In this document: in pieces, positions 9,424 to 34,787 of the stretch
Layout: each line of letters begins with the position of its first letter
Numbering within the stretch: the first letter of the stretch is position 1
Assembly (NCBI GenBank): GCA_001767435.1
Contig: MEKT01000205.1
Span: forward strand, 1,051 to 40,828
Reading direction: 5' to 3'
From: Acidobacteria bacterium RIFCSPLOWO2_02_FULL_65_29
Lineage (GTDB): Bacteria; Acidobacteriota; Vicinamibacteria; Vicinamibacterales; CAVVIG01
Length of the DNA: 39,778 nucleotides
Program-made: the position numbers and the translations under genes
The notes under the pieces: generated by a model
Seen by the model: only the letters and a program-made list of their open reading frames with translations
What the model was told of the DNA's origin: nothing
Databases searched by the model: none

Positions 9424-10509
9424 ATGAACAGGACCCTTCACGACAAGACACCGACAGCCGCGTTGGATCGTCGCTCGTTCCTGACCGCCGCGCTCGCGGG
9501 CCTGGGCGCCGCTTCGGCGAGCGCGCAGGCCCCCGGGCAACCGCCGCAGGTCTCGCCGGTCCCAACCCCGCGCGACTGGTCTCGTCAGGATCCCCTTCAG
9601 TATCCAGATCCCGACATTGTGGCCCTCGACCCTCGCTTTCGCCGCTATATCGTCGGGAACACGGTTATCAGGCGGCTGCATTTCGGCACGCTCTGGGCCG
9701 AAGGTCCGGCGTGGAACGGCGTCGGGCGCTATCTCGTGTGGAGCGACATTCCGAACAACGTCCAGTTGCGCTGGATTGAAGAAGACGGGCGAGTCACCAC
9801 CTTCCGCAATCCGTCCGGCTACAGCAACGGGAACACGTTCGATTTCGAAGGACGTCAACTCTCCTGCGAACACGGCGGCCGCCGCGTCGTGCGCTATGAG
9901 GGCAACGGCACGGTGACCGTCATGGCCGACAAGTTTCAGGGGAAGCGCCTGAATTCGCCGAACGACGCGGTTGTTCATCCCGACGGCGCGATTTGGTTCA
10001 CGGACCCGATCTACGGCATCCGCGGCAACTACGAGGGTTTCAAGGCGGAGCAGGAGCTGCCGACCGCCGTCTACCGCGTGGACCCGGGGAGCTCGCAGAT
10101 CGAGAAGGTCAGCGACGAAGTCGGCGGCCCGAACGGGATCTGCTTTTCGCCCGACTACAAGAAGCTGTACGTCGCGGACACCGGTATGCCGCGAGAGATC
10201 AAAGTGTGGGATGTCGACAAGACGACGCTTCGCAATGGAAAGCGCTTCGTGCAGCTCGATGTCCCTGGAACTGGCGCGCCGTCGGCTGCGGACGGCATCC
10301 GCTGTGACGTGGACGGCAACCTCTGGGCCGGAGCGCGCCCTGGCGTTCAGATCATCGCGCCGACCGGCGAGCGCATCGGCATGATTCGCCTCCCGGAGAC
10401 GTGCGCCAACGTCTGCTTCGGAGGGACGAGACGCAATCGACTGCTCATGACGTCCAGTCAATCGCTGTATGCGGTCTACGTCGAGACCACCGGTGCTCAC
10501 ATTGCGTAG
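9424..10509 (+). CDS. SMP-30/gluconolactonase/LRE-like protein, Tat-exported
   Basis: A 361-residue protein from the ATG at 9424; an upstream ATG would overlap the previous gene by 14 bases and extend past the export signal. The twin-arginine motif DRRSFLTAALAG is followed by ASASAQ. The rest is a six-bladed propeller of the SMP-30 type: EGPAWNGVGRYLVWSDIPNN with the first metal-ligand Glu, NSPNDAVVHPDGAIWFTDP with the Asn/Asp ligands, GGPNGICFSPDYKKLYVADT, and AADGIRCDVDGNLWAG with a late Asp ligand. Relatives hydrolyse sugar lactones with a divalent metal. It follows the cyclase gene by 28 bases. Confidence 0.9.
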   Translation: MNRTLHDKTPTAALDRRSFLTAALAGLGAASASAQAPGQPPQVSPVPTPRDWSRQDPLQYPDPDIVALDPRFRRYIVGNTVIRRLHFGTLWAEGPAWNGVGRYLVWSDIPNNVQLRWIEEDGRVTTFRNPSGYSNGNTFDFEGRQLSCEHGGRRVVRYEGNGTVTVMADKFQGKRLNSPNDAVVHPDGAIWFTDPIYGIRGNYEGFKAEQELPTAVYRVDPGSSQIEKVSDEVGGPNGICFSPDYKKLYVADTGMPREIKVWDVDKTTLRNGKRFVQLDVPGTGAPSAADGIRCDVDGNLWAGARPGVQIIAPTGERIGMIRLPETCANVCFGGTRRNRLLMTSSQSLYAVYVETTGAHIA

Positions 10510-10511
10510 AC

Positions 10512-11819
10512 ATGAAGTCCCGCTCAGAACGCTTTGCGCCGGCGTGTAGCGCAGGACTTCAGTCCTGCCTACGGCGGCGCGCGTGCAGGCCGAAGGTCTC
10601 TGCGGGTCGGGCGCTGCTGCCGCTGCTCCTCGTCCTCGCGCTCTGTGTCGGGTGCCGGGGCGCCGGCAGCCCCATCCTCGTGCTCATCTCATTCGACGGT
10701 TGGCGCTGGGATTACATCGATCGCGCGAAGGTGCCGAATCTGCAGACGCTGGCGGCACGGGGCGTGCGGGCGGAAGGCCTGATTCCCTCGTTTCCGTCGA
10801 ACACGTTCCCAAGCCACTACACCCTCGTCACGGGACTCTATCCCGAGCACCACGGCATCGTCTCGAACAGCATGGTGGATCCCGTCATCGGAGAGCGCTT
10901 CAGCATGTCGGCCGACACGGCCAACGATCCGCGCTGGTGGGGCGGCGAGCCGCTCTGGGCGACCGCCATTCGCCAGGGGCGCCGCGCCGCCTCCATGTTC
11001 TGGCCGGGGTCGGAAGCCCCCATCGGCGGCGTGCGTCCGACGTACTGGCGACCGTTCGACGATGCCGTGCCCAATGCGGAGCGTGTGAGGCAGGTGCTCG
11101 AGTGGCTCGCGCTGCCCGCCGACGAGCGGCCTTCGTTCATCACGGTGTACTTCAGCGACGTCGACAGCGCCGGCCACGACTTTGGACCGGAGTCGACCGA
11201 AGTCCTGGACGCGGCGGGTCGACTGGACCAGGCGCTCGGCGATCTGATTGCGGGCATCGACACGCTGCAGCTCCTCGAGACCACGAGCGTGATTGTCGTA
11301 TCCGATCACGGAATGTCGCAGCTCGACGAGGATCGGATCATCCTTCTGGACGATTACCTGGATCTGTCGACGGTTGATGTGATCGACTGGACGCCGACGC
11401 TTGGGCTGGCGCTTCGCTCGGGGTCAGTCGACGCTGTGTACCAGTCGCTGAAGGGGAAGCATCCCGCGCTCGCCGTCTACAAGCGAGAGGACACGCCGTG
11501 GCACCTCCACTACAGCCGGCACCCGCGCATCCCACCGATCGTCGGGCTGGCAGACGAAGGCTGGAGGATCACCTCGCGTGAGCGCCTCGCCAGCGAGCGC
11601 GCCGCCGGTCGAAAGCCGGGCGGCGCACATGGCTATGACCCGGCGTACAAATCCATGCACGGTTTGTTCGTGGCCGCGGGACCGCGCCTGCGCAGGGGCG
11701 CGGTCTTGCCGGCTTTCGAGAGCGTCAACGTCTACGAGCTCATGTGCTGGCTTCTGGGGCTCGAGCCGGCGAGAAACGATGGCGATCGAGACGCGACGCG
11801 GGAATTCCTGGTGCCCTGA
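10512..11819 (+). CDS. ENPP-type alkaline phosphatase superfamily protein, probable lipoprotein
   Basis: A 435-residue type I phosphodiesterase/nucleotide pyrophosphatase domain. Metal and nucleophile motifs are present: LISFDGWRWDY (Asp62), FPSNTFPSHYTLVTG (Thr98 nucleophile), VYFSDVDSAGHDFGP, VIVVSDHGM and KSMHGLF. The enzyme should hydrolyse phosphodiester or pyrophosphate bonds outside the cytoplasm. A hydrophobic stretch with a lipobox-like LCVGC occurs only at about residue 45, because the first ~30 codons contain the palindromic repeat at 10546-10573. No ATG, GTG or TTG lies between that repeat and the signal core, so either the repeat is translated or a CTG is used. It starts two bases after the lactonase gene. 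Confidence 0.9.
   Translation: MKSRSERFAPACSAGLQSCLRRRACRPKVSAGRALLPLLLVLALCVGCRGAGSPILVLISFDGWRWDYIDRAKVPNLQTLAARGVRAEGLIPSFPSNTFPSHYTLVTGLYPEHHGIVSNSMVDPVIGERFSMSADTANDPRWWGGEPLWATAIRQGRRAASMFWPGSEAPIGGVRPTYWRPFDDAVPNAERVRQVLEWLALPADERPSFITVYFSDVDSAGHDFGPESTEVLDAAGRLDQALGDLIAGIDTLQLLETTSVIVVSDHGMSQLDEDRIILLDDYLDLSTVDVIDWTPTLGLALRSGSVDAVYQSLKGKHPALAVYKREDTPWHLHYSRHPRIPPIVGLADEGWRITSRERLASERAAGRKPGGAHGYDPAYKSMHGLFVAAGPRLRRGAVLPAFESVNVYELMCWLLGLEPARNDGDRDATREFLVP
10546..10573. repeat. Interspersed palindromic repeat inside a coding start
   Basis: The core at 10551-10568 is an 8-base perfect inverted repeat with a 2-base spacer (GCAGGACT-TC-AGTCCTGC), flanked by GTAG on the left and CTAC on the right. 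It lies within the first codons of the ENPP-type gene and is translated as part of an atypically long N-terminus. A related element, same GTAGC/GCAGG layout but different stem bases, occurs at 18441-18470. This resembles REP-like palindromes; I infer it recurs in the genome but only these two copies are visible here. Confidence 0.65.
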
Positions 11820-12871: not shown

Positions 12872-13399
12872 TTATTTCTTGTTCCGTGTGAGGAGGTCGT
12901 AAATCAGCCCGCCGACGCCGCCAGCGGCTGCGCCCACGGCAGCTCCCTTTTTGCCACCGGCCAACGCGCCGATGGCGGTTCCCGCGCCGGCGCTTCCACC
13001 GATGATCAACGCTTCCTTCTCCCACGAACGCTTGTTCGCGCGTTGAGGCTCCGGTCTTGTCTCGACGATGGCCGGGGAACGGGCCAGCTCGGCGCGACTC
13101 GCATTGTCGCTAAGTCGCACGGGATGCAGCCCTTGCTCGTCGCGAAGATAGACGGTCTGTGTGTCGTTCGTCTGCCTTTGCGGAATGAAAAGATGTCCTT
13201 GACGCCCGTTCGCCAGAGCGATCGGCACGAGCGTGCCCGTCAGGGGGCCATCGGACGTGGCGATCGTGTCGGTGTACCCGCCTGACACTCCGTATAGCTG
13301 CTCGATCTGCCGGGCGTCCATGGCCTGGGCGTCCCGTGTGCACGCCGCGAATAGAGTCGCGCCCAGTAGCGCCAACGCAAACGCCGTCATGATTTTCAT
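12872..13399 (-). CDS. Lipoprotein with C-terminal glycine-zipper segment
   Basis: A 175-residue predicted lipoprotein: signal MKIMTAFALALLGATLFAAC with lipobox F17-A-A-C20. The central part (GTLVPIALANGRQGHLFIPQ, TQTVYLRDEQGLHPVRLS) is unassigned. The C-terminus holds a glycine/alanine zipper (GGSAGAGTAIGALAGGKKGA, GAAAGGVGGLIYDLL), a membrane-interacting helix pair seen in stress lipoproteins. Its promoter region carries the TGTTC-N6-GCACA dyad 81 bases upstream. That whole upstream region and the first nine codons are duplicated at 30550-30690, where the rest of the gene is missing. Confidence 0.78.
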   Translation of the reverse strand: MKIMTAFALALLGATLFAACTRDAQAMDARQIEQLYGVSGGYTDTIATSDGPLTGTLVPIALANGRQGHLFIPQRQTNDTQTVYLRDEQGLHPVRLSDNASRAELARSPAIVETRPEPQRANKRSWEKEALIIGGSAGAGTAIGALAGGKKGAAVGAAAGGVGGLIYDLLTRNKK

Positions 13400-13513
13400 G
13401 TGTGTGCCTCAGTAGACGACCAACAGGATCGCAGGTCGTTTCATGCCCGTCCACTGTATGCGAGGCGTCTTCGGTTGCCTGTTCCCAATTGCACAGCGGA
13501 CCGCCGCCGGGAT
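13373..13513. repeat. Leader module copy 1 (promoter and first codons of the lipoprotein gene)
   Basis: These 141 bases align without gaps to 30550-30690 (constant offset 17,177) with only scattered substitutions. The module contains the first codons of the lipoprotein gene (MKIMTAFAL on the reverse strand), its leader and the dyad at 13480-13495. Beyond both edges the two loci are unrelated. Confidence 0.85.
13480..13495. promoter_or_regulatory. Putative CRP/FNR-type operator, TGTTC-N6-GCACA
   Basis: A 16-base dyad with spacer CCAATT, 81 bases upstream of the lipoprotein ATG. It belongs to the set TGTKC-N6-GMACA found upstream of several genes between 13 and 35 kb. The 5-6-5 geometry equals that of CRP sites. 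Confidence 0.5.
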
Positions 13514-17087: not shown

Positions 17088-17873
17088 TTACCGTTCGGCC
17101 TGGAGACTCGCGGCCTTATCGAGCCTGAACGTGAGCAGCGTTTCTGCGGGGACGCGAATGTCCTTCCCCCTGTTGAGCACCTGAACGCCCGCCCCGCCGG
17201 CCGCGCCCACCAGGACGCCAATGGCCGCGCCCTTGGTGCCGCCCGCGATGGCGCCGATGATCGTCCCGAGCGCGGCGCCGCCCCCTACGGTCTCAGCCGT
17301 CCGCTTGTTCTTGCCGATGCCGGTGCCGGTGTCGTTCTTCAGGTCCGTGGTGCTCACAAGGTACCGTCGCCCGCTGACCGTCATCGATTGCATGTCGAGC
17401 ACGATGTCGGGGCTGCCCGTCGCTCCGCCGGACGTCATCTCCCGTACGACGAGTACGGCGTGGGAACCCGCGGGGATGATCACGTTGTGAGACTCTCCGA
17501 GGATGTCTCGCTCGACGATGGCCGAGAAGGTTTGATCCACGACAGCGGTCGAGGAATCGATGTCTTCAGCCGTTCGAACCGTCAGCTCCGTCCCACTCGG
17601 GAGCCTCTCGAGCCGGCGCATGTTTCCGCTCGGCGTCCCGAAGGCGGCAGTTCGCTGACTCGCCCTGGTGAATTCGAGCGCGTCGACCTGGTTCGCGTTG
17701 TAGCGGCGCGAGACGCCGGACGCGTCCTCGAAGGTAATCGTCCGCGCGGCGATGCTCACGACCCTGCCGGGAACGCGCGTGCCGTCCCACAGAATCAACG
17801 TGTCGGCCGACGAAATGGCTGCCAGCGACACGACACACAGGCTCATCGCCGTGGCGATGACAATTCTTTTCAT
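17088..17873 (-). CDS. Exported glycine-zipper protein with N-terminal beta module
   Basis: A 261-residue protein. Signal [23 protein letters not shown]; then a beta-strand module ([21 protein letters not shown] to VDALEF, residues 26-70) similar to modules in the protein at 29630-30448; a middle domain ([30 protein letters not shown]); a glycine-zipper pair at about 200-235 ([20 protein letters not shown]); and the end [13 protein letters not shown]. The pattern suggests an envelope-associated scaffold; the function is unknown. The leader and the first eight codons closely match those of the M48 protease gene at 33200. A TGTAC-N6-GCACA dyad lies 93 bases upstream. Confidence 0.8.
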
Positions 17874-17965: not shown

Positions 17966-17981
17966 TGTACCCGATTGCACA
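17966..17981. promoter_or_regulatory. Putative CRP/FNR-type operator, TGTAC-N6-GCACA
   Basis: A 16-base dyad with spacer CCGATT, 93 bases upstream of the glycine-zipper gene. It differs from the consensus TGTKC-N6-GMACA at one position but keeps dyad symmetry, and shares the GATT spacer end with the site at 30657. Confidence 0.45.
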
Positions 17982-18019: not shown

Positions 18020-18364
18020 TCAGGCCGAGTGCTTCCTGATTTCAGCGATGCGATCGCTCTTGGCAGCAACCGCATAGCGCTCCACTTCGTGGGCGCCGCG
18101 CGCCACGACGTCGGCGACGTCGTCGCGGACGCCCCGACCTTTCCGGGTGAGCTCGTCGACCGCCGCACCGACGCCGGTGCTGGCCTGCTGATACTGTTCG
18201 GAGGCCCGCTCGCCGAGTCTTTTCGCCGAATCGGTCACTCGCTGGCGAAGCTCTGAGGCCGTTCGTGGGGCGAGCCACATCATCAGGCCGGCGCCGACGA
18301 AGGTGCCCGTCAACAGTCCGATCACGAAGCCGTGGTCTCGATGCTCTTGCGTGTGTGCGTTCAT
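18020..18364 (-). CDS. YtxH domain-containing protein
   Basis: A 114-residue protein. One N-terminal membrane segment with small residues (GFVIGLLTGTFVGAGLMMWLAP) is followed by SELRQRVTDSAKRL and a long amphipathic, probably coiled helix (ERASEQYQQASTGVGAAVDE ... DVADVVARGAHEVERYAVAA). This is the YtxH/general-stress layout. The ATG at 18364 has a CAGGAG ribosome-binding site 9 bases upstream. A perfect TGTGC-N6-GCACA dyad lies 50 bases upstream. A truncated copy is at 33251-33436, and a 3'-end remnant at 26580-26651. It lies downstream of the CRP/FNR gene. Confidence 0.85.
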   Translation of the reverse strand: MNAHTQEHRDHGFVIGLLTGTFVGAGLMMWLAPRTASELRQRVTDSAKRLGERASEQYQQASTGVGAAVDELTRKGRGVRDDVADVVARGAHEVERYAVAAKSDRIAEIRKHSA

Positions 18365-18413: not shown

Positions 18414-18429
18414 TGTGCACAACGGCACA
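18414..18429. promoter_or_regulatory. Putative CRP/FNR-type operator, perfect dyad TGTGC-N6-GCACA
   Basis: The most symmetric member of the set, spacer ACAACG, 50 bases upstream of the YtxH start. The same spacer occurs in the site upstream of the truncated YtxH copy at 33487-33502, so both the operator and its distance to the gene were kept in the duplication. Confidence 0.55.
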
Positions 18430-18486: not shown

Positions 18487-19161
18487 TTAGTCGTGCAGGA
18501 GCACGCTGCGGAGGCCACGATGGACGGTCAACCCGGCTTCACCGTTGTAATCGATAAAGCCAAGCTTCCTGAACTTGTTCATGAAATGATTGATTCGCGA
18601 CCGGGTTGTGCCGACCATCTGCGCCAGGTGTTCCTGATTGATCCCGGCCACGACAGTTTCGGTCGTGCTCTCCTTGCCAAAATGGGACAGCAGCAGGAGA
18701 ATCCGGGCCAGGCGCTTCTCGCTGGAGTTGAACAACTGGTCTACGAGATCCGCTTCGTATCGGATGATGCGAGTCAGCAGATGCGTGACGAACATTTCCG
18801 CGATTCCCTGCTCTTCGTGAAGCAGGCGCGCCATGGTCGGCTTCTCAACCTTGGTCAGCGTGCAATCTCCCACTGAAATCGCCGTGGCCATACGCAACGG
18901 CTGACCGGCGAGGCATCCTTCACCGAAGAACTCACCGGAGCCCAGCGTGGCGACAATCGCTTCCTTGCCTTCGTGGGATGCCACCGCAAGCTTCACCCTG
19001 CCTCGTAGGAGAAAGAACAAGGAATCCGCGGGCTCTCCTTGCATGAAGATGGTGTGGTTCGCACCGCACTCTAAAACGGTTTTACCCCTCTCGACTCCCG
19101 TCAGGAGGGTTTCCCAATCAGACAGACTCTTTCCCCGAGCCATCACCACATTGTTTCCCAT
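18487..19161 (-). CDS. CRP/FNR family transcriptional regulator (copy 1)
   Basis: A 224-residue regulator from the ATG at 19161 (an earlier ATG at 19188 and a later one at 19143 are possible). The N-terminal half is a cyclic-nucleotide-binding-like beta roll (HTIFMQGEPADSLFFLLRGR, GEFFGEGCLAGQPLRMATAI), then a dimer helix, and a C-terminal winged helix with recognition segment EHLAQMVGTTRSRINHFMNK. No N-terminal cysteine cluster as in FNR is present, and the CRP cAMP-contact pattern is altered (GEGCLAG). It is strongly similar to the regulator at 33896-34579, with a nearly identical recognition helix, so both may read the same site. It is the last or near-last gene of the kai operon. Confidence 0.9.
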   Translation of the reverse strand: MGNNVVMARGKSLSDWETLLTGVERGKTVLECGANHTIFMQGEPADSLFFLLRGRVKLAVASHEGKEAIVATLGSGEFFGEGCLAGQPLRMATAISVGDCTLTKVEKPTMARLLHEEQGIAEMFVTHLLTRIIRYEADLVDQLFNSSEKRLARILLLLSHFGKESTTETVVAGINQEHLAQMVGTTRSRINHFMNKFRKLGFIDYNGEAGLTVHRGLRSVLLHD

Positions 19162-19212
19162 GGCCACACACTCTCTGCGCGGCGGCAAACGAACTTGTGC
19201 CGCCCGGCAGAT

Positions 19213-19542
19213 CTAGTGATGGGCGTCCCTCTTGGTTCTCAGGTCCAGTCCAAAGAGCACTTTGTTGAGGTCCGACATGTCGCCAACGAGCCTTTGCAGC
19301 GGGATCGGGAGCCGTTTGATCAGCGTGGGCACTGCCACAATCTGCTCGTCTCTGGCCAGATTCGCCCGCCGGTAGATGTCGATGACTTCCAGGTCATACC
19401 GACCCTTCAGGTGCTCTTCACACACCCGCTTGATATTCTCCACGGCCAGTTTCGAACGCAACGTGGATCGGCTGACATACAAACGCAAGACGTACTCGGC
19501 CCGGCGGGAGTGAGACCTGGCTTTTTGGGGGCGCTTTTTCAT
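19213..19542 (-). CDS. kaiB: KaiB-like protein (copy 1)
   Basis: A 109-residue KaiB domain: [71 protein letters not shown]. KaiB is a fold-switching thioredoxin-like protein that binds the CI ring of KaiC; outside cyanobacteria KaiB paralogues act in stress or timing signalling. The N-terminus is very basic. It is 20 bases downstream of the second kaiB-like gene and about 40% similar to it by eye, so the pair arose by duplication. The symbol is used in the broad sense. Confidence 0.85.
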   Translation of the reverse strand: MKKRPQKARSHSRRAEYVLRLYVSRSTLRSKLAVENIKRVCEEHLKGRYDLEVIDIYRRANLARDEQIVAVPTLIKRLPIPLQRLVGDMSDLNKVLFGLDLRTKRDAHH

Positions 19543-19562
19543 GCGGACCTTCTGGAGTCGGG

Positions 19563-19913
19563 TCAGCCGACCTTTTGCAGGGCCATGCCCACCAACACCC
19601 GGTCGGTGTTGGACAGGTCTCCAATGATCTGTCGGACAGATTGCGGAAGGTTGACGACCAGGGTCGGCAGTGCGACGATCTGGTTGCCGCGCGCCATTTC
19701 CGGATGCTCCAAGAGGTCGATCACTTCGATCTGATAGCGGCCCTTCAGATGCTCTTCACACAGCACCTTGAGGTTCGCAAAGGCGCGAATCGATTTGGGC
19801 GTCTGGCCCGCCACGAAGAGCCGCAGCTTGAAAACCTCAGGTTTCCTGCGCTTCGATTTCGCGGGCTTCGGCTTGCGAGGCCGCGCACGAGTTGTTGTCT
19901 TGGTTGCCGCCAT
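19563..19913 (-). CDS. kaiB: KaiB-like protein (copy 2)
   Basis: A 116-residue protein with a ~28-residue Lys/Arg/Pro-rich tail before the KaiB domain ([69 protein letters not shown]). The ATG overlaps the kaiC stop by one base (TAATG), implying translational coupling and a KaiC-KaiB complex. As in copy 1, the PTLV/PTLI segment with the cis-proline position of the thioredoxin-like fold is present. No KaiA gene is nearby. Confidence 0.87.
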
Positions 19914-21670
19914 TAGCGTTTCACGGCGGCTGGCGCGCTCGCCCTTTTCTTGTAGGCGGCGGTGTCCGCTTCCCGGCTCCGCTCCATCTGCCGGCGGTCC
20001 GTCAGCAGGGCCTCGTCGAGTGTTTTCGATTCAACGATGCTTTGTTGAAGGACTTCTTCCTCCACTTCGAACTCCGCCCGGAGCATGCTCATGCGGGCCT
20101 CGAAGATGCGGCGCTTGCGATCCAGCTCGCGCCCGCGGGCCTCCATGTGTTGCCGGCGGGACGTGCCCGCGGCTAGCTCGCGCCCTTCCTGTGACACGCG
20201 GGCGGCACCGGTCAACACGCCCTCGGATCCAAGGTACACGTCCAGCAATCGGAGGCCGTCGTCGGTGATCAGGAATTCGCGAATCTGGTTGGAATGAGCC
20301 ATGCCTCGCGATTTCAGCACATAGAGTGCGCGGTTCAGCTCTCCCCCGATCTCAATGGTCTTCAGCAGGAGCCACGAGTCCATCAGTGAGGAGACGTCCG
20401 CCTCGCTGGCTTCCAACGTGCCGCTTCCCGCAGTCAAACTGGCGAAGATCGCCGTGATCTGCTGGGTCTTCAGAAAATCCACCATCCGCGTGAGCATGGA
20501 CCGCACTTCGCCCAGGGTGCTGACCGTGAGCAGATTGGTAATCGGGTCGACCACCACGACGTTGGGCTGAAAGCTGGAGACGCACCTGTGGGTCACGAGC
20601 AAGTGCTGTTCGATCCCCCCGTGGGCGGGCCGCGCCGCTTGGAATTGCAGCAGGCCCTTATGGATCCACGGCTCGAGATCGATCCCGATCGAACGCATGT
20701 TGCGGACGATCTGCCTGGGTGATTCCTCGAAGGCGAAATACAAGCAGCGTTCGCCGCGTCGGCAGGCCGCATCCACGAAATGCGCCGCCACGCTGGTTTT
20801 TCCGGCTCCCGAGGTGCCGGACAGCAGAATGCTGCTCCCCCGATAAAAGCCTTTGCCGCCCAACATGCCATCCAACCGGGTAATGCCAGTCGAGATTCGA
20901 ACGGTGGGCGCCGAATGGTCAAGGCCAAGCGAGGAGAGGGGTAGGACGGAAATGCCGTGTTCATCGATGAGGAACGGATACTCATTCGTGCCGTGGGTCG
21001 AACCGCGGTACTTGACGATGCGCAGGCGCCGGGTCGAGATCTCGTCGTGGATACGGTGGTCCAACAGGATCACGCAGTCCGAGACGAACTCCTCGATGCC
21101 GTGCCGGGTCAGCCTGTCGGGCCGGTCCCGCTCGGCCGTAATGACCGTGGTTAATCCCTTTTCCTTGAGCCAGCCGAACAGGCGGCGGATTTCGGCCCGC
21201 AGGATACTCGGGTTTGGCAACTCGCCGAAGAGCGCTTCAATGGTGTCCAGGACGATTCGCCGCGCCCCGACCCGCTGGACGGCGTCGGCAATTCGAATGA
21301 AGAGGCCATCGAGGTCATACTCCCCGGTTTCCTCAATCTCGCTTCGCGAGATGTACACGTGGTCCAGGAACAGCTTCTTGTCGGCCACCAGCCGGCCCAG
21401 GTCGAAACCGAGCGATTCGGCGTTTTTGGTCAGGTCCGGGATCGTTTCCTCGAACGACATGAACACGCCGGGTTCGTCGTATTGGGTGGTGCCCCGAACC
21501 AGGAACTCCAGTCCGAACAGTGTCTTTCCCGAACCGGCGCCTCCACTGACAAGAGTGGGACGCCCGCTTGGTAACCCTCCTCCAGTGATTTCGTCCAAGC
21601 CCTGGATTCCGGTGAGTGCTTTCCGTAGCGTCTTGGAAGATGGTGGACTTGCTTTCTTCTTTTGTGTCAT
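19913..21670 (-). CDS. kaiC: KaiC-like dual RecA ATPase/kinase
   Basis: A 585-residue protein from the ATG at 21670, chosen for the AGGA site 7 bases before it; an ATG at 21712 would add 14 residues. Two RecA/KaiC domains: CI with Walker A GGAGSGKT (Lys49) and Glu-Glu in [11 protein letters not shown] with GTSGAGKT (Lys291) and FEES. The CII autophosphorylation site appears as Ser427-Ser428 (in DVSSLMDS), equivalent to Ser431-Thr432 of Synechococcus KaiC. Past CII there is a ~110-residue extension ending in a coiled coil ([12 protein letters not shown]). No KaiA is encoded here, so any rhythm would be of hourglass type or the protein acts in signalling. Operon with two kaiB-like genes. Confidence 0.92.
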
Positions 21671-21770
21671 GCGCGCGTCCTGGCCCGGGCGATCTAGGGC
21701 GGGTTCCTTCATCTATCAGAGACTACTGCTCGAGAAGAGCGCCATGGATTGTACAAGACTTTGCCGTGAA

Positions 21771-22685
21771 TCACGCTGGGGCTGGAGCTGCAGCGGCAAG
21801 TGTGGCCGTTTCAACGGCCTCGTGGCGCTGCTCTTCCTGCTCTTTCCCGAGCCCGGTCTCGGCCCAGTCGGTTTCGAACGTGGCGATCAGCTCCTTGACG
21901 ATCGTCGCGCCTTTGACGAACACACCCACTTCGCGCCGCTTGTCCAACTCGAGCTTGCGCAGGCTCTGACTGCCGACGAAGGCGTGCCGACCATCGCGGA
22001 CAATGGCGCGGACGTGGAGCCGATGCCCCGGATACTTCTGATGGACCAGATCGTCTCCCCGCGGGCTCACCTTGCCGATGATCCGGACCTCGACGCCTGC
22101 CTTGGCGCGCTCTTTCAGCAGCCTGATCATCCGGATGTCGCTGACCTTTGGATCGTAGATGAGGAGCTGTGTCTTCGCTTTGCTGATGAAGGCAGACAGT
22201 TGCGCGCGCGCGTTTTCCGGGCTGACCAGCAGAGGTCCGGCGGCCACGTACGGGCGCCTCGCGCAATCGGCCTCGAACAGCTTGATGGCCTCCTGCACGG
22301 TCTTCCGGTTCTTCGTCACGATGCCAAAACTGCGGCTCTTGGTGACATCTTGCCGCGTGTAGTTGTAGCCGAGCACCAACAGCGTCGTGCGATCGACGAT
22401 CATGAACTTGCTGTGGTACCGGATGAAGTCGTCCCCGGTCCGGTCTACCGTTGCGCCGGCCGCCAGTAACCGCTGCTCGAGTTTCCGCAATCGGCCTGAC
22501 CCGCCCTGATTGGTATGAGCGATGAGCGCATGGACCTGAACGCCCCGTGCGACGGCGGCGGTCAGGGCCCGCTCGATGTCATCGCGATTGAAGCGGAAGA
22601 TCACCAGTTCGATGCTCTTCGTGGCCTTCTTGATCGCCGCGATCAGTGGCGCGCTTCCGTCTCGTGGCTGAATGAGGAGCTTCAT
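21771..22685 (-). CDS. Phospholipase D-like protein with one atypical HKD motif
   Basis: A 304-residue PLD superfamily protein without export signal. The first motif is canonical (H91-S-K93-F-M-I-V-D98, in RYHSKFMIVD); the second reads H224-V-R226-A-I-V-R-D231, with Arg in place of the catalytic-motif Lys. Each motif is followed by the usual G-[YS]-[NQ] turn (VLGYNYT, FVGSQSL). PLD enzymes use both His residues for phosphodiester transfer; Arg may reduce but need not abolish activity. The tail is Ala/Pro-rich. It lies 10 bases downstream of the metallophosphoesterase gene and 100 bases upstream of kaiC, so the order MPPE-PLD-kaiC-kaiB-kaiB-CRP may form one transcript. Confidence 0.85.
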   Translation of the reverse strand: MKLLIQPRDGSAPLIAAIKKATKSIELVIFRFNRDDIERALTAAVARGVQVHALIAHTNQGGSGRLRKLEQRLLAAGATVDRTGDDFIRYHSKFMIVDRTTLLVLGYNYTRQDVTKSRSFGIVTKNRKTVQEAIKLFEADCARRPYVAAGPLLVSPENARAQLSAFISKAKTQLLIYDPKVSDIRMIRLLKERAKAGVEVRIIGKVSPRGDDLVHQKYPGHRLHVRAIVRDGRHAFVGSQSLRKLELDKRREVGVFVKGATIVKELIATFETDWAETGLGKEQEEQRHEAVETATLAAAAPAPA

Positions 22686-22695
22686 GCCTGCATAC

Positions 22696-24234
22696 CTATT
22701 GTCCGGTCAAGCGGAGTGTGCGCCACGCCGTCGCGGCGCGACACGCGTCCTGCCACTCGAGGGTGGTGCTGTCCTGGGGCTTCGCCGCCGCATCAGCAGT
22801 CCGCGAGAGGACGCCGCAGTCGAGCGTTCGCCCTGGCGGAGTGATGGCTTCGAAGAACATCTGGTCTCCTGCTATTTCCACGACCATGAAGTGGTGTTCC
22901 GACGAACCGGCCTCGTCGAAGGCGCTCTTGTGGAAGTCGTACAGATTCCTGCCGCCGCCGCCAGACACGAAATACCGGATCCCCTGCTGCGGTGCGATCC
23001 GCTCGTACAGATGATCGTGACCGCTGAAGACGACGTCGACGCGATTGCGCACCAGGGCCGGCTCGAGCGCGGGTCGAATGCTTTCACGGCTCTGCTGAGC
23101 GTGCTGGCCGGACGAATACAGCGGGTGATGGAAGAAACTGATGCGCCATTTCGTGCCGGTGTGGCCAAAGGCGCCGTCGAGCCACTCGCGCTGGGCGTCA
23201 TCACCGGGCTTGTTGCTGTTCAAGACCACGAAGCGGGCGTTGCCCTCGGTAAACGCATAGTAAAGCCGATCGGTCATGTGAAACGGCTTGTAGTGCTGCT
23301 GGAGCTCGCGGTCGTGATTCCCCAGGGCCGCGTAGAACAGCACGCCGCGCTCCAGCAGTCCTTGATACGGCACCGAGAACTCGCTCTGGTAATCGTCGTG
23401 GTACAGGTTGTCTCCCAGCATCAGCACGAAGCTGAAGCGGCGAGCGGTCGTGAAGTAGCGGAGCATCGCGTTCGCGACGGCCTGCTGAGCCCAATCGCCA
23501 CTGCCGCTGTCGCCGATCAGCGCGAACCTGGTCGACCCGGGGATTCCTGGAAGCGCGAAGAGCGGATCCGACCCGTCGCTGACCGCCGCCGGGGATAGCG
23601 CCGGCACGTCGCCGGCCGGCGGCGAGTCCGGGAATGCCTGGAGCATGAAGTCGACGAGCGTATCGGCATCGACATCGCGCAAGATCAACGTCCGCCCGCT
23701 GAACGCGAACTCCACCTGCTGAGGCAACTGCGGCAACGTCTCGAGCAACACGGGAGGTACGCGTGGAACCGCGACCGTCCGATTGATCGTGAGGGCTATT
23801 GATTCGGCCTGTAGCCCTTCGTTCTGATCCTTCAGCCCGTCTCGGATGAGATCAGCCTTCGGGCCGCCAAACGCCGTGGCCAGCTGTCGTCGAATCAGGT
23901 CCGCCACCGTGGGTGACAAAACGTCGCCTTGCTGCGCGGTCGGTCTGACGGTGGTCTGAATCGCCTCCGCCAGGGTCCGTTGGCGCAGGCGGACGGCCTC
24001 GTCGGCCCCGTTCGCTGACGTCTGGTTCGGCACGGCGTCGCCTTTGGCTGCGGCGTCTTTCCGAAACGGCTGTGTCTGGTCGACGTACGTTTGCAGGGCT
24101 GTGCGGAACGACTCGAGTGCCGGTGATTGGACCGCCGGGACGATCGTCGGCGGCAGGTACGAGGCGCACGCTGCCGACCCGAGCACCCACCCGAGTGTGA
24201 GCACGAGAATGACCGCGAGAATTCGGCTGTTCAT
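22696..24234 (-). CDS. Metallophosphoesterase (purple acid phosphatase-like), predicted lipoprotein
   Basis: A 512-residue protein with a lipoprotein-like signal (MNSRILAVILVLTLGWVLGS, then AAC-A). The first ~230 residues are unassigned and probably helical (ESFRTALQTYVDQTQPFRKD, LAEAIQTTVRPTAQQ). The catalytic domain runs from about residue 235: FALIGDSGSGD, MLGDNLYHDD, ALGNHDRE, SFFHHPLYSS and FSGHDHLYER, the complete metallophosphoesterase motif set for two metals. Substrate unknown. The start at 24234 was chosen because the longer frame adds an unrelated 18 residues before the signal peptide. It is divergent from the DUF4956 gene, with 88 bases between the start codons. Confidence 0.88.
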   Translation of the reverse strand: MNSRILAVILVLTLGWVLGSAACASYLPPTIVPAVQSPALESFRTALQTYVDQTQPFRKDAAAKGDAVPNQTSANGADEAVRLRQRTLAEAIQTTVRPTAQQGDVLSPTVADLIRRQLATAFGGPKADLIRDGLKDQNEGLQAESIALTINRTVAVPRVPPVLLETLPQLPQQVEFAFSGRTLILRDVDADTLVDFMLQAFPDSPPAGDVPALSPAAVSDGSDPLFALPGIPGSTRFALIGDSGSGDWAQQAVANAMLRYFTTARRFSFVLMLGDNLYHDDYQSEFSVPYQGLLERGVLFYAALGNHDRELQQHYKPFHMTDRLYYAFTEGNARFVVLNSNKPGDDAQREWLDGAFGHTGTKWRISFFHHPLYSSGQHAQQSRESIRPALEPALVRNRVDVVFSGHDHLYERIAPQQGIRYFVSGGGGRNLYDFHKSAFDEAGSSEHHFMVVEIAGDQMFFEAITPPGRTLDCGVLSRTADAAAKPQDSTTLEWQDACRAATAWRTLRLTGQ

Positions 24235-24271: not shown

Positions 24272-24287
24272 TGCGCTGTATTGAACA
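24272..24287. promoter_or_regulatory. Possible CRP/FNR-type operator in a divergent promoter, TGCGC-N6-GAACA
   Basis: This lies between the divergently transcribed metallophosphoesterase and DUF4956 genes, 38 and 36 bases from their start codons. It matches TGTKC-N6-GMACA at all but one position (TGCGC for TGTGC). If real, it would bring the MPPE-PLD-kai operon into the same regulon. Confidence 0.35.
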
Positions 24288-26678: not shown

Positions 26679-26903
26679 TTACGCGCGCTTTCGAACTCCC
26701 GCGATCAACACCGCCACGCCACCCGCCACCGCGAACGCACCCAGCAACGGCGGCAACGGCAGTGTCTTCTGTCGCTCCGCTGTCGCGTGCAGGGGACCGA
26801 TGTCGATGACCGTCTCACGACTCGTGTAGCTGACACCCTGATAGGCGAGCGCCAGCACACCGAGGACGATCAACACCACACCAACAAGGGCAACAGGTCT
26901 CAT
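26679..26903 (-). CDS. DUF3185 family small membrane protein (copy 2)
   Basis: A 74-residue protein with two membrane segments (VALVGVVLIVLGVLALAYQG and LLGAFAVAGGVAVLIAG) around the conserved loop SYTSRETVIDIGPLHATAER, ending RKRA. This is the DUF3185 pattern; function unknown. The TGTGC-N6-GAACA dyad lies 61 bases upstream. The 3' end and following bases match those of the copy at 29359, up to the start codon of the gene after each. Confidence 0.85.
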   Translation of the reverse strand: MRPVALVGVVLIVLGVLALAYQGVSYTSRETVIDIGPLHATAERQKTLPLPPLLGAFAVAGGVAVLIAGVRKRA

Positions 26904-26963: not shown

Positions 26964-26979
26964 TGTGCACAAGAGAACA
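26964..26979. promoter_or_regulatory. Putative CRP/FNR-type operator, TGTGC-N6-GAACA
   Basis: Spacer ACAAGA. It lies between divergent genes, 61 bases from the DUF3185 start and 55 from the lmo0937-type start, and could serve both. A longer similarity, including GAGCATGGCACGCGG about 25 bases away, is shared with the site upstream of the second CRP/FNR gene (34614-34629). Confidence 0.5.
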
Positions 26980-27691: not shown

Positions 27692-28588
27692 TTACTTGCC
27701 GTTGCCGCCCTTGCGGCCCGGGTTCCCGGGCGTCCCGCCCAGCTCGTCATTCGACCGGCTCGGGTCGCCCTGGTTCGAGTTGCCCGGATCGCAGTCCTCG
27801 GGCCCGTTGCCCACGCCCTGGTTGCACTTGCCATGCACGTTGCCGTGGCCGCCGGTTAACTGGCAGGCGGTGACGGTGCTGTTTGTCAATGTCAATGTCA
27901 CTGCGGTCGTCGCAAAGAGATCCCCTTGAAAGGTTCCATTGGTGGCCGTGACCGTGATGGCCGCACCCGAGAGAATGGTTCCCAGGAAGTTCGTAGTCGT
28001 CAGTGTCGCGCCGGCGTTCAGCCCGGTCCGCCAATACACGTTACACGGATCCCCGCCGTTAATCATGACCACATTGAAGTTGGTGCCCGTGAGTGCGCCA
28101 TCGACCAGGAAAATCCAGACAGCACTCGCGCCGGCGGTCCCGGCATCGAGAGTCAACGTGCCCGTCTTCGCGACCGCGTCGACACAGTAGACGCCGGGTA
28201 ACAGCACTTCGCCCGCGAGCGTGCCCGTCAACGTGGCGTCGCAAGCCGGGGGGTTGATCAGGAGACTGTTATACGCGTTGATGAAGTCAGCGTAAGCCGC
28301 CGCGGCGGTCGAGTCCCCCAGGTGAAACGTCCCCGAAAACGTGCACGGAGGGGAGTTAGTGAAAGCGTTGTTGGGCCACTCGCCGACGTCTCCGGTGACG
28401 ACAGTGGTACCGCCACCATTGGTACATGTCACCGCCGTGCCAGCCAGGACCCCGAAGCCCGACGCCGAACCCAAGTCTGGCGCGAACGCTTTTGCCAACC
28501 CCGGGGAGGGGTTGCAAAGAAGCGCGGCGAACGGGACAAGGAAGAGCACTCGAGTTGTCAGTCGTGTCAGAGAAATCGATCGAATCAT
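27692..28588 (-). CDS. Ice-binding family protein (DUF3494), secreted
   Basis: A 298-residue protein: signal peptide (LFLVPFAALLCNPSPGLAKA), then the DUF3494 beta-solenoid, with FGVLAGTAVTCTNGGGTTVV, TGDVGEWPNNAFT, AAAYADFINAYNSLL, GEVLLPGVYCVDAV, DPCNVYWRTG, FLGTILSGAAITVTATNGTF and TLTNSTVTACQLTG. DUF3494 proteins bind ice crystals or act as adhesins. The tail (about 45 residues, CNQGVGNGPEDCDPGNSNQG onwards) is Gly/Asn/Asp-rich and probably disordered. A CCAGGAG ribosome-binding site precedes the ATG. A fragment matching its 3' part is at 38621-38667, and a second family member begins at 39778. Confidence 0.9.
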   Translation of the reverse strand: MIRSISLTRLTTRVLFLVPFAALLCNPSPGLAKAFAPDLGSASGFGVLAGTAVTCTNGGGTTVVTGDVGEWPNNAFTNSPPCTFSGTFHLGDSTAAAAYADFINAYNSLLINPPACDATLTGTLAGEVLLPGVYCVDAVAKTGTLTLDAGTAGASAVWIFLVDGALTGTNFNVVMINGGDPCNVYWRTGLNAGATLTTTNFLGTILSGAAITVTATNGTFQGDLFATTAVTLTLTNSTVTACQLTGGHGNVHGKCNQGVGNGPEDCDPGNSNQGDPSRSNDELGGTPGNPGRKGGNGK

Positions 28589-29358: not shown

Positions 29359-29583
29359 TTACGCGCGCTTTCGAACCCCCCCGAGCAACAGCACCACGCC
29401 ACCGGCCACCGCTGTAATTCCCAGCACTGGCGGAAGCGGCAGCGTCTTCTGTCGATCCGCTGTCGCGTGCAGGGGACCGATGTCGAGAACCGTTTCGCGA
29501 CTCGTGTAGGTGATGCCTTGGTAGAGGAGCGCCACCACGCCGAGCATGATCAGTACGACACCTACGATCGTCATGTGTCTCAT
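29359..29583 (-). CDS. DUF3185 family small membrane protein (copy 3)
   Basis: A 74-residue protein, same length as copies 2 and 4: membrane segment IVGVVLIMLGVVALLYQGIT, loop TSRETVLDIGPLHATADRQK, second segment VLGITAVAGGVVLLLGG, end RKRA. The second ATG (29574) is an alternative start. It starts 46 bases after the lectin-like gene and precedes the outer-membrane barrel gene. The intervening bases are the tail of a lost CRP/FNR gene (29592-29629). Confidence 0.85.
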   Translation of the reverse strand: MRHMTIVGVVLIMLGVVALLYQGITYTSRETVLDIGPLHATADRQKTLPLPPVLGITAVAGGVVLLLGGVRKRA

Positions 29584-29591
29584 GGGATTCC

Positions 29592-29629
29592 TCAGTCGTA
29601 CAGGACGACGCTCAGCAGTGAGCTGTTGA
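29592..29629 (-). pseudogene. CRP/FNR gene 3'-end remnant
   Basis: The reverse strand reads INSSLLSVVLYD and a stop, matching the last residues of the intact regulator at 33896-34579 (INSSLLSVVLHD). The DNA is nearly identical over the 38 bases and continues into the same spacer and DUF3185 start. It shows that this DUF3185 copy was once preceded by a CRP/FNR gene, as copy 4 still is; the regulator has been replaced by the lectin-like gene. Confidence 0.82.
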
Positions 29630-30448
29630 TTAGCGCCGGAGCCGTGTGAGCGTCACCGTGTAGGTTCCGCTGTTGTCCGAGAAATAGTCGTCGTTGACGC
29701 CGAGCAGAAGCTGGCCGTTGGCCGGCATCGCGATCGGTTGTGTGTTCGCGCCGATGGCGAACGGCGCACGGTTGCCGACGCGGGCGATCAGGGCTCCCAC
29801 TGGCGAGTTGAGTACTGGGTAACGGATCGCGGGACTGGTCACCGCCGGGTTACCGCCGATTCCCGAGCTCGCATTCGCCGCAATCATGATGTCGCCCGTG
29901 GCCGTGAACTCGATTCGTTCGCCCTTCGCCACGGTGATCCCGGACTTGGTCCACGGCTGGTCGCCCCGGACGATGATGGCGCCGCGGGGCACAGCGGCCT
30001 GCGCTGGGACTTCGGCCGGCGCGGCGGCGCGCTTCGGCGCGTACAGGTAGATCTGCGCGACGTCGTTCGACGTGTAGTCGCGCTGCCCGCTGGGTGTATC
30101 GATGGTGAGCCGCAAGGGGCGGGTTCCGCCGATGTCAAAGAGCCGGCCTTCGATGACCTGACCACTCCGCAGCACGATGAGCGGCTGCCCGGCGTCGATC
30201 CTGGCCTGGGTCGCTGGTGCCGGCGCGCCCACGACGAACTCCACGGCGGCGACTTCGTTCGCGGGATACTGCCGCTCCTGGCCGTTGGTTCGCAGAGTGA
30301 AGCCGCCGGCGTTCAGGTCGATCAGCTCGCCGCTCGGACGCTGGCCGTCGAGCAGGACGAGCGTCGCCCCTTCCTGCGCGTGCACGGGCAGGACCGTCAG
30401 CAGCGTGAATAGGCCCACTCCGCACCCGGCGAATATCTTGTTCATCAT
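29630..30448 (-). CDS. Exported protein with PA-IL/LecA-like galactose-binding domain
   Basis: A 272-residue protein from ATG 30448 (CAGGAG 6 bases upstream; a second ATG follows directly). Signal peptide to about HAQ (residue 25). Two successive beta modules (TLVLLDGQRPSGELIDLNAG, PANEVAAVEFV; then LIVLRSGQVIEGRLFDIGGT, NDVAQIYLY) resemble the single module in the glycine-zipper protein at 17088. The last ~110 residues (PWTKSGITVAKGERIEFTAT, PVGALIARVGNRAPFAIGAN, LLLGVNDDYFSDNSGTYTV) match the LecA-like lectin domain, where NDDYFSDNSG carries the calcium and sugar contacts. It has its own dyad 62 bases upstream. It has replaced a CRP/FNR gene. Confidence 0.82.
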   Translation of the reverse strand: MMNKIFAGCGVGLFTLLTVLPVHAQEGATLVLLDGQRPSGELIDLNAGGFTLRTNGQERQYPANEVAAVEFVVGAPAPATQARIDAGQPLIVLRSGQVIEGRLFDIGGTRPLRLTIDTPSGQRDYTSNDVAQIYLYAPKRAAAPAEVPAQAAVPRGAIIVRGDQPWTKSGITVAKGERIEFTATGDIMIAANASSGIGGNPAVTSPAIRYPVLNSPVGALIARVGNRAPFAIGANTQPIAMPANGQLLLGVNDDYFSDNSGTYTVTLTRLRR

Positions 30449-30509: not shown

Positions 30510-30525
30510 TGTTCGATCCAGCACA
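30510..30525. promoter_or_regulatory. Putative CRP/FNR-type operator, TGTTC-N6-GCACA
   Basis: Spacer GATCCA, 62 bases upstream of the lectin-like gene. It is not part of any of the visible duplicated segments, so it is an independent occurrence of the motif and useful evidence that the motif is functional. Confidence 0.5.
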
Positions 30526-30549: not shown

Positions 30550-30690
30550 CAACGCAAACGCGGTCATGATTTTCATGTGTGTGCCTCAGTAGACGACCAA
30601 CGAGATCGCGGGTCGTTTCACACCCGTCCACTGCAGGCGAGGCGTCTTCCGTTGCCTGTTCCCGATTGCACAGCGGACAACCGCCGGGAT
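30550..30690. repeat. Leader module copy 2, with the start of a lost lipoprotein gene
   Basis: A gap-free match to 13373-13513. On the reverse strand the ATG at 30576 and codons MKIMTAFAL remain, after which the frame runs through unrelated sequence to a stop at 30472-30474 (34 codons in all). The dyad TGTTC-CCGATT-GCACA is at 30657-30672. It may still drive transcription through this short frame into the lectin-like gene. Confidence 0.82.
30657..30672. promoter_or_regulatory. Putative CRP/FNR-type operator, TGTTC-N6-GCACA (duplicate)
   Basis: The counterpart of the site at 13480-13495 within the duplicated leader module. All ten half-site bases are unchanged while neighbouring positions have changed, including one in the spacer (CCAATT to CCGATT), compatible with selection on the half-sites. 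Confidence 0.5.
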
Positions 30691-33250: not shown

Positions 33251-33436
33251 TCAGCGGCTGCGAGCTCCGCCAGTCGAGACGTGGCCCAGACTCCTCGCCG
33301 AATCGGTCACTCGCCGGCGAAGCTCTGAGGCTACTCGCGGGGCGAACCACATCGCCAGGTCGGCGCCGACGAACGTGCCTGTCAAGAGTCCGATAGCGAA
33401 GCCGTAGTCGCGATGCGCCTGCGTGTGTGCGTTCAT
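33251..33436 (-). CDS. Truncated YtxH-like protein
   Basis: A 61-residue product whose first ~48 residues match the YtxH protein at 18020 (MNAHTQAHRDYGFAIGLLTG, ELRRRVTDSARSLG), followed by a foreign end (HVSTGGARSR). The foreign bases include a 24-base piece of the gene at 26057 (the RLDWRSS codons, in another frame), so this is a fusion of two unrelated fragments. The membrane segment is intact, the long helix is gone. It may be a functional membrane peptide or a pseudogene. The dyad at 33487-33502 is 51 bases upstream. Confidence 0.6.
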   Translation of the reverse strand: MNAHTQAHRDYGFAIGLLTGTFVGADLAMWFAPRVASELRRRVTDSARSLGHVSTGGARSR

Positions 33437-33486: not shown

Positions 33487-33502
33487 TGTTCACAACGGCA
33501 CA
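33487..33502. promoter_or_regulatory. Putative CRP/FNR-type operator, TGTTC-N6-GCACA
   Basis: Spacer ACAACG, as at 18414-18429. It lies between the truncated YtxH gene (51 bases) and the DksA/TraR stub (49 bases), in a divergent arrangement like that at 26964. Confidence 0.5.
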
Positions 33503-33662: not shown

Positions 33663-33887
33663 CTACGCGCGCTTACGCGCGCCGGCCATCAGCAGCGCCA
33701 CGCCACCGGCCAGCGCCGCAATCCCCAGCACCGGCGGAAGAGGCAGCGTCCTCTGTCGATCCGCCGTCGCGTGCAGGGGACCGAAGTCGATGACCGTATC
33801 GCGACTCGTGTAGGTGATGCCTTGGTAGACGAGCGCCAACACACCGACCACGATGAGTACGACACCAACGATCGACATTTGTCTCAT
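33663..33887 (-). CDS. DUF3185 family small membrane protein (copy 4)
   Basis: A 74-residue protein with membrane segments VGVVLIVVGVLALVYQGITY and VLGIAALAGGVALLMAG, the loop TSRDTVIDFGPLHATADRQR and the end RKRA. It starts 8 bases after the CRP/FNR stop, so the two are certainly co-transcribed. This regulator-DUF3185 order is probably the ancestral one: copy 3 keeps only the regulator's last codons. The flank downstream matches that of the broken copy at 25846. Confidence 0.87.
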   Translation of the reverse strand: MRQMSIVGVVLIVVGVLALVYQGITYTSRDTVIDFGPLHATADRQRTLPLPPVLGIAALAGGVALLMAGARKRA

Positions 33888-33895
33888 GGGATTCC

Positions 33896-34579
33896 TCAGT
33901 CGTGCAGGACGACGCTCAGCAGTGAGCTGTTGATCTTGAGAGGGATCTCGCCGTTGTATTCGATGAAGCCCAGCCGCTTGAATTTGTTCAGAAAGAAATT
34001 GACGCGTGATCGCGTCGTGCCGACCATCTCCGCCAGCGTCTCCTGCGAGATCTTCGGGACCACACGGGCCGGCGTGGCCTGCTTCCCGTAGCGGGCCAGC
34101 AGCAACAGCGCGCGCGCCAGCCGCTTCTCGCTCGAGTTGAAGAGCTGATCGATCAAGTCCTCTTCGATCCGGATGTTGCGCGACAGCATGTGCGAGATGA
34201 ACCGGTCGGACATCGCATGCTGCTTATGCAAGAGCCGAAGCATTTTTTCTTTACCGACGACCAAGATCACGCTCGGGGTGATGGCGGTGGCGCTGCCCAT
34301 CCGGACCGGCTGGCCGGCCAAACACCCCTCGCCGAAGAAGTCGCCGGGGCCGAGCATCGCCACCACGGCTTCTCTACCGGTCTTCGACACCACCGACAAT
34401 TTGACGCCGCCCGTTTGAATGTAGAGGACATCCTCACAGGGGTCCCCCTGCGTGAAGATGGTCTCGCCTCGCCCATACTCCACGATGGTCTTCGCCACTC
34501 CCGACGAATCCAGAAACGCCTGCGCGTTGAACGCCGGGGCGGCTCGAGTCCGTCCGTTGGAGGCATTTCCAGGTTGCAT
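33896..34579 (-). CDS. CRP/FNR family transcriptional regulator (copy 2)
   Basis: A 227-residue regulator from ATG 34579; upstream in-frame codons cross the operator and are not expected to be translated. The cyclic-nucleotide-like beta roll (ETIFTQGDPCEDVLYIQTGG, GDFFGEGCLAGQPVRMG) precedes a dimer helix and a winged helix with recognition segment ETLAEMVGTTRSRVNFFLNK. Compared with copy 1, GTTRSRxN and the flanking residues are the same, predicting the same DNA target. A TGTGC-N6-GAACA dyad lies 35 bases upstream of its own start, suggesting autoregulation. There is no N-terminal Cys cluster, so it does not look like an FNR-type oxygen sensor. Confidence 0.91.
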   Translation of the reverse strand: MQPGNASNGRTRAAPAFNAQAFLDSSGVAKTIVEYGRGETIFTQGDPCEDVLYIQTGGVKLSVVSKTGREAVVAMLGPGDFFGEGCLAGQPVRMGSATAITPSVILVVGKEKMLRLLHKQHAMSDRFISHMLSRNIRIEEDLIDQLFNSSEKRLARALLLLARYGKQATPARVVPKISQETLAEMVGTTRSRVNFFLNKFKRLGFIEYNGEIPLKINSSLLSVVLHD

Positions 34580-34613
34580 GCGCTGAGCATGGCACGCGGT
34601 CTGTCCATGGAGG

Positions 34614-34629
34614 TGTGCACAACAGAACA
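34614..34629. promoter_or_regulatory. Putative autoregulatory operator, TGTGC-N6-GAACA
   Basis: Spacer ACAACA, 35 bases upstream of the second CRP/FNR gene. The surrounding bases resemble those at 26930-26985. The short distance to the start codon would suit repression by promoter overlap. Confidence 0.5.
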
Positions 34630-34787
34630 CGTGCCCGTTCACGGCACGCGGTGTGCTCAATTGAACAGCCGGGCGTTCGTCAGTCCTCTACCATACCCGT
34701 ACAGTCATGAACGCGATCACAGCGACGCGAGAAAGAAACCTTCGCGAGAGACGCCTCGGACGTCGTTTACTCGCATTGGAGGTCGCG

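Follow-up and report, generated by a model that had tools for sequence, protein, structure and literature searches.

A KaiA-less kaiC-kaiB-kaiB locus of an acidobacterium with a CRP/FNR-family gene in the place of the kinase gene

Introduction

To our knowledge, the outputs of Kai systems that lack KaiA are poorly known. A kai locus of Acidobacteria bacterium RIFCSPLOWO2_02_FULL_65_29 raises the question of what such an output may be when the gene that follows the kai genes encodes a DNA-binding regulator. The locus lies in a stretch of 39,778 nt of contig MEKT01000205.1, here called the window, from a genome of 5.5 Mb that is 97% complete. A Pfam scan found on its minus strand, in this order, genes for a metallophosphoesterase (MPPE), a PLD-like protein, KaiC, two KaiB proteins and a CRP/FNR-family regulator (CRP), which are all six genes, in the order given by a first-pass annotation made from the DNA letters (Table 1). 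We call the kaiB gene next to kaiC proximal and the other one distal. The reading that we favour, at about even chances, is that the kai genes form a KaiBC module of the Rhodobacter sphaeroides type, in which the kinase partner may have been swapped for a CRP regulator that would control the surrounding gene island and its own operon. Kai loci are labelled L and the genomes compared G; L010 is contig C55 of G091, G052 corresponds to L011/L122, G104 to L127 and G098 to L126.

KaiC resembles the R. sphaeroides protein

The closest solved relative of the window KaiC is R. sphaeroides KaiC (8dba, E 3.8e-186), the match covering residues 30-581 including the C-terminal tail. In the alignment with 8dba both Walker A motifs, both FEE glutamate pairs (CI and CII), the Ser-Ser pair and the C-terminal extension are found, the extension aligning with the R. 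sphaeroides protein up to residue 555 of 568. The likely start codon of kaiC is at 21670 (Met15 of the longest open reading frame, ORF), giving a protein of 585 amino acids, which fits relatives of 585 amino acids. The serine pair, S441/S442 in the longest ORF, is S427/S428 when counted from this start and aligns to S413/S414 of R. sphaeroides KaiC. With the Met15 numbering, the alignment bears out the first-pass claim of two Walker A motifs and a Ser427-Ser428 pair; as to the coiled-coil C-terminal extension that was also claimed, the extension is present, and by its alignment to 8dba it may form a coiled coil. According to the portion of PMC10076222 that was available, which gives E62/E63 and S413/S414 as landmarks, R. 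sphaeroides KaiC autophosphorylates without KaiA, forms a dodecamer via its tail and acts as an hourglass driven by the ATP/ADP ratio. The window module shares with this KaiBC hourglass (8dba, 8fwi, 8fwj; PMC10076222, same portion) a KaiA-less KaiC, the C-terminal extension, the Ser-Ser pair and the catalytic glutamates.

Profile scores place the protein in the wider KaiC family, above the cut-off of NF006799 (PRK09302; 721 bits vs 408) and below that of the cyanobacterial circadian equivalog TIGR02655 (375.9 of 546.25). KaiC domains gave seven matches in the genome, and two full domains are found only in this kaiC ORF. The absence of kaiA, noted at first for the locus, holds genome-wide, with 0 matches to PF07688 in the 97%-complete genome; the control gave a match in Synechococcus elongatus only. 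Judged by these sequence features, the module is a KaiA-less KaiBC of the R. sphaeroides kind.

A CRP/FNR gene in the place of the kinase gene

The R. sphaeroides operon is described as kaiC, a single kaiB and a PAS/histidine kinase gene (PMC4794148, in the part of that paper at hand); in the window there are two kaiB genes, and the CRP gene occupies the slot of the kinase gene. Its product has the cNMP-binding and HTH_Crp_2 domains of CRP/FNR regulators, with scores above the cut-offs of 27.5 and 27 bits (Table 1), and stays below the cut-offs of the NCBIfam models that it matched, the best being NF008732 (CRP equivalog, 58.7 of 266). Among 75 loci scanned for the gene after the last kaiB, this gene encodes a PAS family protein in 69, with a match to HATPase_c in 45 of the 75, and a CRP/FNR protein in four. 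These four are close relatives, with KaiC 83-88% identical to that of the window. CRP follows in eight loci, at an offset of -4 to 3 nt in L010, L011 and L012, 0 nt in L124 and 341 nt in L013. Because the relatives L015, L014 and G423 keep a PAS-HisKA_3 kinase, it is most likely that CRP replaced the kinase within the close clade.

The link between the two genes extends beyond this slot. Among the 193 genomes of the class, seven, including that of the window, have a KaiC at least 79% identical; six of the seven carry beside kaiC a CRP at least 71% identical, and the next CRPs in the class reach at most 59%. G098 has neither distal KaiB nor CRP in its available DNA, and G104 has no distal KaiB. 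In G098 (L126), the position of distal kaiB and CRP is taken up at 10335-11729 by genes for two proteins, of 194 and 265 amino acids, that match no Pfam family. Within 8 kb of kaiC, CRP occurs in 13 of 33 Acidobacterial or close loci vs 0 of 73 others, where flanks are shorter than 8 kb in many loci, so that absence of CRP there is partial. The query was Acidobacterial and may favour the phylum; at a looser E 1e-4 the count was still 0 of 73. L012 and L014, whose titles are not plainly Acidobacterial, are counted among the 33 since their KaiC is 83% identical. Four arrangements are seen; besides the one described, CRP lies upstream in the same direction (G438), divergently (G139, G140) or beyond a kinase and a regulator (G423, and G430 by similarity). 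The G423 kinase is followed by a LuxR-type response regulator. The kaiCBB locus of Thiodictyon syntrophicum Cad16 likewise combines kaiC with two kaiB genes, and differs in the neighbour named, a diguanylate cyclase; no CRP and no analysis of the paralogues is mentioned (PMC5944118, as far as the excerpt goes). No description of a KaiC-CRP arrangement turned up in the open literature searched.

A CRP-type palindrome as candidate operator

Comparison of the DNA upstream of kaiC in relatives revealed a 16-bp palindrome, TGTKC-N6-GMACA, which has the size of CRP/FNR sites. Its half-site TGTKC differs from the consensus of E. coli CRP and FNR. The motif was spotted by eye in L010, L093/L123, L124 and L126, and these four are not independent; the exact site in L010 differs from the half-match first seen there, and G052, G104 and the window cluster were not used for discovery. 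The exact motif precedes kaiC in all six same-order relatives with KaiC at least 79% identical, at 174 (G091), 305 (G052), 236 (G097), 231 (G090), 230 (G098) and 51 nt (G104) before the start. Within about 700 nt it is found in one of 74 other kai loci and in two of 21 other Acidobacterial loci. L012, L014 and L015 have no exact site before kaiC, and the three sites of L013 are far from kaiC.

In the window the motif is clustered. Of 20 exact sites in the genome, nine fall in the window, which is 0.72% of the sequence (P ~8e-15); the reversed pattern, used as control, gave 10 and 0. With one mismatch allowed there are 17 matches vs 4.39 expected, a number reached in 0 of 100 shuffles. Seven of the nine exact sites, against 8% expected, have a listed start at most 120 nt downstream, the starts being chosen by the analyst and the sites at 30657 and 30966 fitting none. 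The genes so preceded include the two that encode YtxH-like proteins, one for a small membrane protein and the second CRP gene of the window, the only other match in the genome to the kai-linked CRP at E 1e-45.

CRPs of this kind (E 1e-45) are present in 59 of the 193 class genomes, in which the motif occurs 944 times and the control 508 times; in the 134 genomes without them the counts are 1077 and 861. The excess over the control is larger in genomes with CRP (P 8e-8 over 193 genomes, uncorrected for kinship). Upstream of 20 paralogous CRP genes an exact site occurs in four cases (control 0), and a site with at least nine of ten positions in eight (control 1).

The kaiC leaders of relatives hold two other features. 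Just upstream of kaiC, L010, L123, L124 and L126 have a short ORF, about 57-60 codons long, that shows the shared pattern DRxxLxRLxLQIER...LRxLL...ELRxxKARxxR; it extends as far as the kaiC start, which it overlaps in L010, and none was seen in the window. In L012 a perfect 24-bp palindrome, GACTGCTTTTCTAGAAAAGCAGTC, lies about 130 nt before the ATG, with arms that 3 of 2000 shuffles reach. It is partly kept in L015, the leader is common to L013, and in the window it is decayed. This palindrome was set aside as an operator lead, similar leaders preceding kinase-type loci.

Two KaiB clades

The proximal and distal KaiB proteins are 45% identical over 101 columns and are the only two KaiB matches in the genome. 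Both score above the curated Pfam cut-off of 27 bits (Table 1) and below the cyanobacterial circadian model TIGR02654 (78.4 and 84.5 of 145.3) and NF006798 (83.3 and 88.1 of 110). Two or more KaiB ORFs occur in 75 of the 80 KaiC loci nearest to that of the window, which are the top-ranking ones among 503 confirmed loci and bear titles of bacteria and archaea; those without a second one are L033, where the contig ends, L045, L048, L082 and L084. When 71 proximal and as many distal copies were placed in one tree with three solved KaiB proteins, a single branch split the two kinds, 140 of the 142 copies being on the expected side and both exceptions coming from loci with three KaiB genes. In L021 and L054, where three kaiB genes are called, the second one is on the proximal side of the tree. 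R. sphaeroides KaiB and cyanobacterial KaiB also group on the proximal side. In view of this tree the pair appears to stem from one old duplication whose products have kept their order. The two paralogues named in the first-pass annotation are thus real, but as an ancient and widespread pair they are not special to this locus, and we rejected a local novelty. No description of the two-clade split turned up in the open literature searched.

The proximal copies are the more conserved, with 21 invariant columns of 86 against seven in the distal copies. Root distances (1.35 proximal, 1.74 distal) were dropped as a sign of faster distal change because the root is a proximal-side sequence. According to PMC11551320 (in the part available), the hour-scale fold switch of KaiB is set by three prolines (P58, P65 and P67 in R. 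sphaeroides), which 474 of 487 variants have, and the substitution P58A or P65A abolishes the fold-switched state. Of the 71 copies of each kind, 69 carry the full set, the exceptions being the window and L011 (proximal) and L021 and L075 (distal). In the proximal KaiB of the window the third proline is replaced by Ser, a difference from R. sphaeroides KaiB on the same side of the tree; the distal copy keeps all three. With the genome relatives added, five of the 11 proximal copies in the close clade have another residue at this position (Ser, Ser, Ala, Gln, Ala), a loss seen in none of the 64 outside it. The loss is not tied to CRP, since L010, L012, L013 and G104 have both CRP and the proline and G098 has neither. 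AlphaFold2 models from paralogue-specific alignments have the ground-state topology for both copies at low pLDDT (60 and 70) and do not separate them; the nearest PDB chains to both models are ground-state KaiB proteins.

Legionella pneumophila KaiB Lpp1115 (4kun), which stands outside a KaiABC clock, matches the distal copy with E 3e-14 and the proximal copy with 1e-10. In the accessible part of PMC10808063, Lpp1115 is reported to have crystallised in the fold-switched state and is linked to stress response; the same part describes what additional KaiB copies do as incompletely understood.

Gene row and surrounding island

The kaiC stop and the proximal kaiB start overlap by one base (TAATG), which makes translational coupling plausible. 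The other distances are 10 nt between the MPPE and PLD genes, 100 nt from the PLD gene to the likely kaiC start, 20 nt between the kaiB genes and at least 24 nt from kaiB to CRP, varying with the CRP start chosen. Conservation of the whole row, which the first-pass annotation had asked to be checked, is found in part: kaiC-kaiB-kaiB-CRP recurs in relatives, but MPPE-PLD is absent there in the stretches searched. No MPPE or PLD homologue was found in the 80 KaiC loci or the other genome stretches searched (phmmer, E 1e-5; many stretches are short), and the two genes were rejected as part of the module.

Table 1. Genes of the kai row, second CRP gene and CRP-type sites in the window
Feature	Position	Strand	Remarks
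Metallophosphoesterase (MPPE), calcineurin-like	22696..24234	-	PF00149, 53.3 bits; ATG 24234, longest ORF to 24288
PLD-like protein	21771..22685	-	PF13091 (PLDc_2), 111.1 bits, two stretches
kaiC, R. sphaeroides type with C-terminal extension	19913..21712	-	Pfam KaiC, 359.8 bits, two stretches
Proximal kaiB	19563..19913	-	Pfam KaiB, 80.8 bits
Distal kaiB	19213..19542	-	Pfam KaiB, 80.3 bits
CRP/FNR-family regulator (kai-linked)	18487..19188	-	cNMP_binding 71.7, HTH_Crp_2 39.6 bits
Second CRP/FNR gene	33896..34660	-	54% identical to kai-linked CRP
Exact CRP-type site	13480..13495		about 80 nt upstream of gene 12872-13399
CRP-type site, one mismatch	17966..17981		upstream of gene 17088-17873
Exact CRP-type site	18414..18429		about 50 nt before YtxH-like gene (ATG 18364)
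Candidate operator, one mismatch	24272..24287		between divergent genes, heading the kai row, about 38 nt before MPPE ATG 24234
Exact CRP-type site	26964..26979		about 60 nt upstream of small membrane-protein gene starting at 26903
Exact CRP-type site	30510..30525		62 nt upstream of ATG 30448
Exact CRP-type sites	30657 and 30966		no listed start within 120 nt
Exact CRP-type site	33487..33502		51 nt upstream of second YtxH-like gene
Two exact CRP-type sites (34614, 34652)	34614..34667		upstream of second CRP gene

The island around the row holds three similar small membrane-protein genes (26679-26903, 29359-29583 and 33663-33887), two YtxH-like genes (18020-18364 and 33254-33436) and an Ice_binding gene (27692-28588). 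Ahead of a gene for a small membrane protein, the stretch 29581-29630 repeats almost exactly the final codons of a CRP gene together with the spacer after them, an arrangement also seen at 33.9 kb; this repeat looks like a CRP remnant left by a duplication.

Discussion

Under the reading that we favour, KaiC would sense the ATP/ADP state on the scale of hours with the help of KaiB. CRP, by itself or jointly with the paralogue encoded at 33.9-34.7 kb, would bind the predicted TGTKC-N6-GMACA sites and so control the island and its own operon, which would close a feedback loop. The least certain element is that the Kai state may act on CRP, by contact with one of the two proteins KaiC and KaiB or via a cyclic nucleotide, and that CRP would not merely set Kai levels. 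A cyclic nucleotide ligand for CRP is possible, since the adenylate/guanylate cyclase domain PF00211 has 11 matches in the genome. The regulatory tie between the kai genes and CRP suggested by the first-pass annotation gains support from the conserved adjacency, the other arrangements and the clustered CRP-type sites before nearby envelope and stress genes. A more specific version, in which a post-translational Kai timer has the CRP of the same operon as output, its state would modulate CRP, and CRP would act on the kai operon and on a local stress and envelope regulon, closing a transcriptional loop without a kinase, and in which the roles of the two KaiB proteins split after the proximal copy lost its proline, appears unlikely to us, though it deserves mention.

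Several results weigh against the favoured reading. The kinase is kept in relatives as near as L015 (KaiC 80%), L014 (83%) and G423 (73%), and five of the 18 matches to the CRP subfamily (E 1e-85) in a sample of 396 phylum genomes are directly beside kaiC. CRP and operator do not always go together: L012 and L013 have CRP and no site within 600 nt before kaiC, and G098 has the site and no kai-linked CRP. In the window itself no exact site lies within 600 nt before kaiC, and the only site of the kaiC row, at 24272, may serve the MPPE gene or the divergent one; promoter and terminator scans were not above shuffles. The control pattern also differs between genomes with and without CRP (P 2e-4), and part of the motif difference is therefore due to genome size or composition. 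Since sites precede paralogous CRP genes, the motif probably belongs to the CRP family at large and not to the kai-linked member alone, and the second CRP of the window may be its true binder.

A second explanation is that CRP is part of a stress and envelope island for which the kai genes are one more target, with no signal from Kai to CRP. We consider this a serious possibility, somewhat less probable than the favoured reading: CRP-type sites occur across a large part of the window, among other places before genes for YtxH-like and membrane proteins, two CRPs are encoded there, and such CRPs are present in 59 of the 193 class genomes, with sites before some of the paralogue genes. The position of CRP in the conserved slot of the PAS partner, and its place next to kaiC in other arrangements, exceed what ordinary membership of a regulon would give. 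A third explanation, that kaiC-kaiB-kaiB and CRP came together in a single event and move between genomes as a cassette, with no functional link between them, would account for the patchy occurrence of KaiC at 79% identity or more (four families among the seven genomes) and for relatives with 80-83% identical KaiC that bear titles from other lineages. We regard such hitch-hiking as improbable in view of the tight spacing of CRP in most of the loci measured, its presence beside kaiC also upstream, divergently or past a kinase-regulator pair, and the candidate operator before kaiC in same-order relatives.

Separate from the role of CRP is the proposal of the first-pass annotation that the two KaiB proteins compete for one site on KaiC and thereby tune the timer, which we hold as tentative, below an even chance. 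It agrees with the retention of the apparently ancient pair in 75 of 80 loci, with the conservation of both copies, the proximal one more so, and with the loss of proline 67 in some proximal copies of the close clade and in none of the other proximal copies, while the distal copy of the window keeps it. The distal KaiB may, on the other side, have another partner, G104 and G098 do without it, and the models, both in the ground state at low confidence, offer no separation of the copies.

If the favoured reading holds, the locus would represent a natural partner swap, in which the KaiC core is kept and the kinase is replaced by a DNA-binding regulator with a readable candidate operator. The output of the KaiC-CRP lineage would thus be accessible to simple binding and reporter assays. 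The KaiB pair, apparently ancient and present in bacterial and archaeal loci, together with the natural loss of a timing proline, would allow direct tests of the role of each KaiB.

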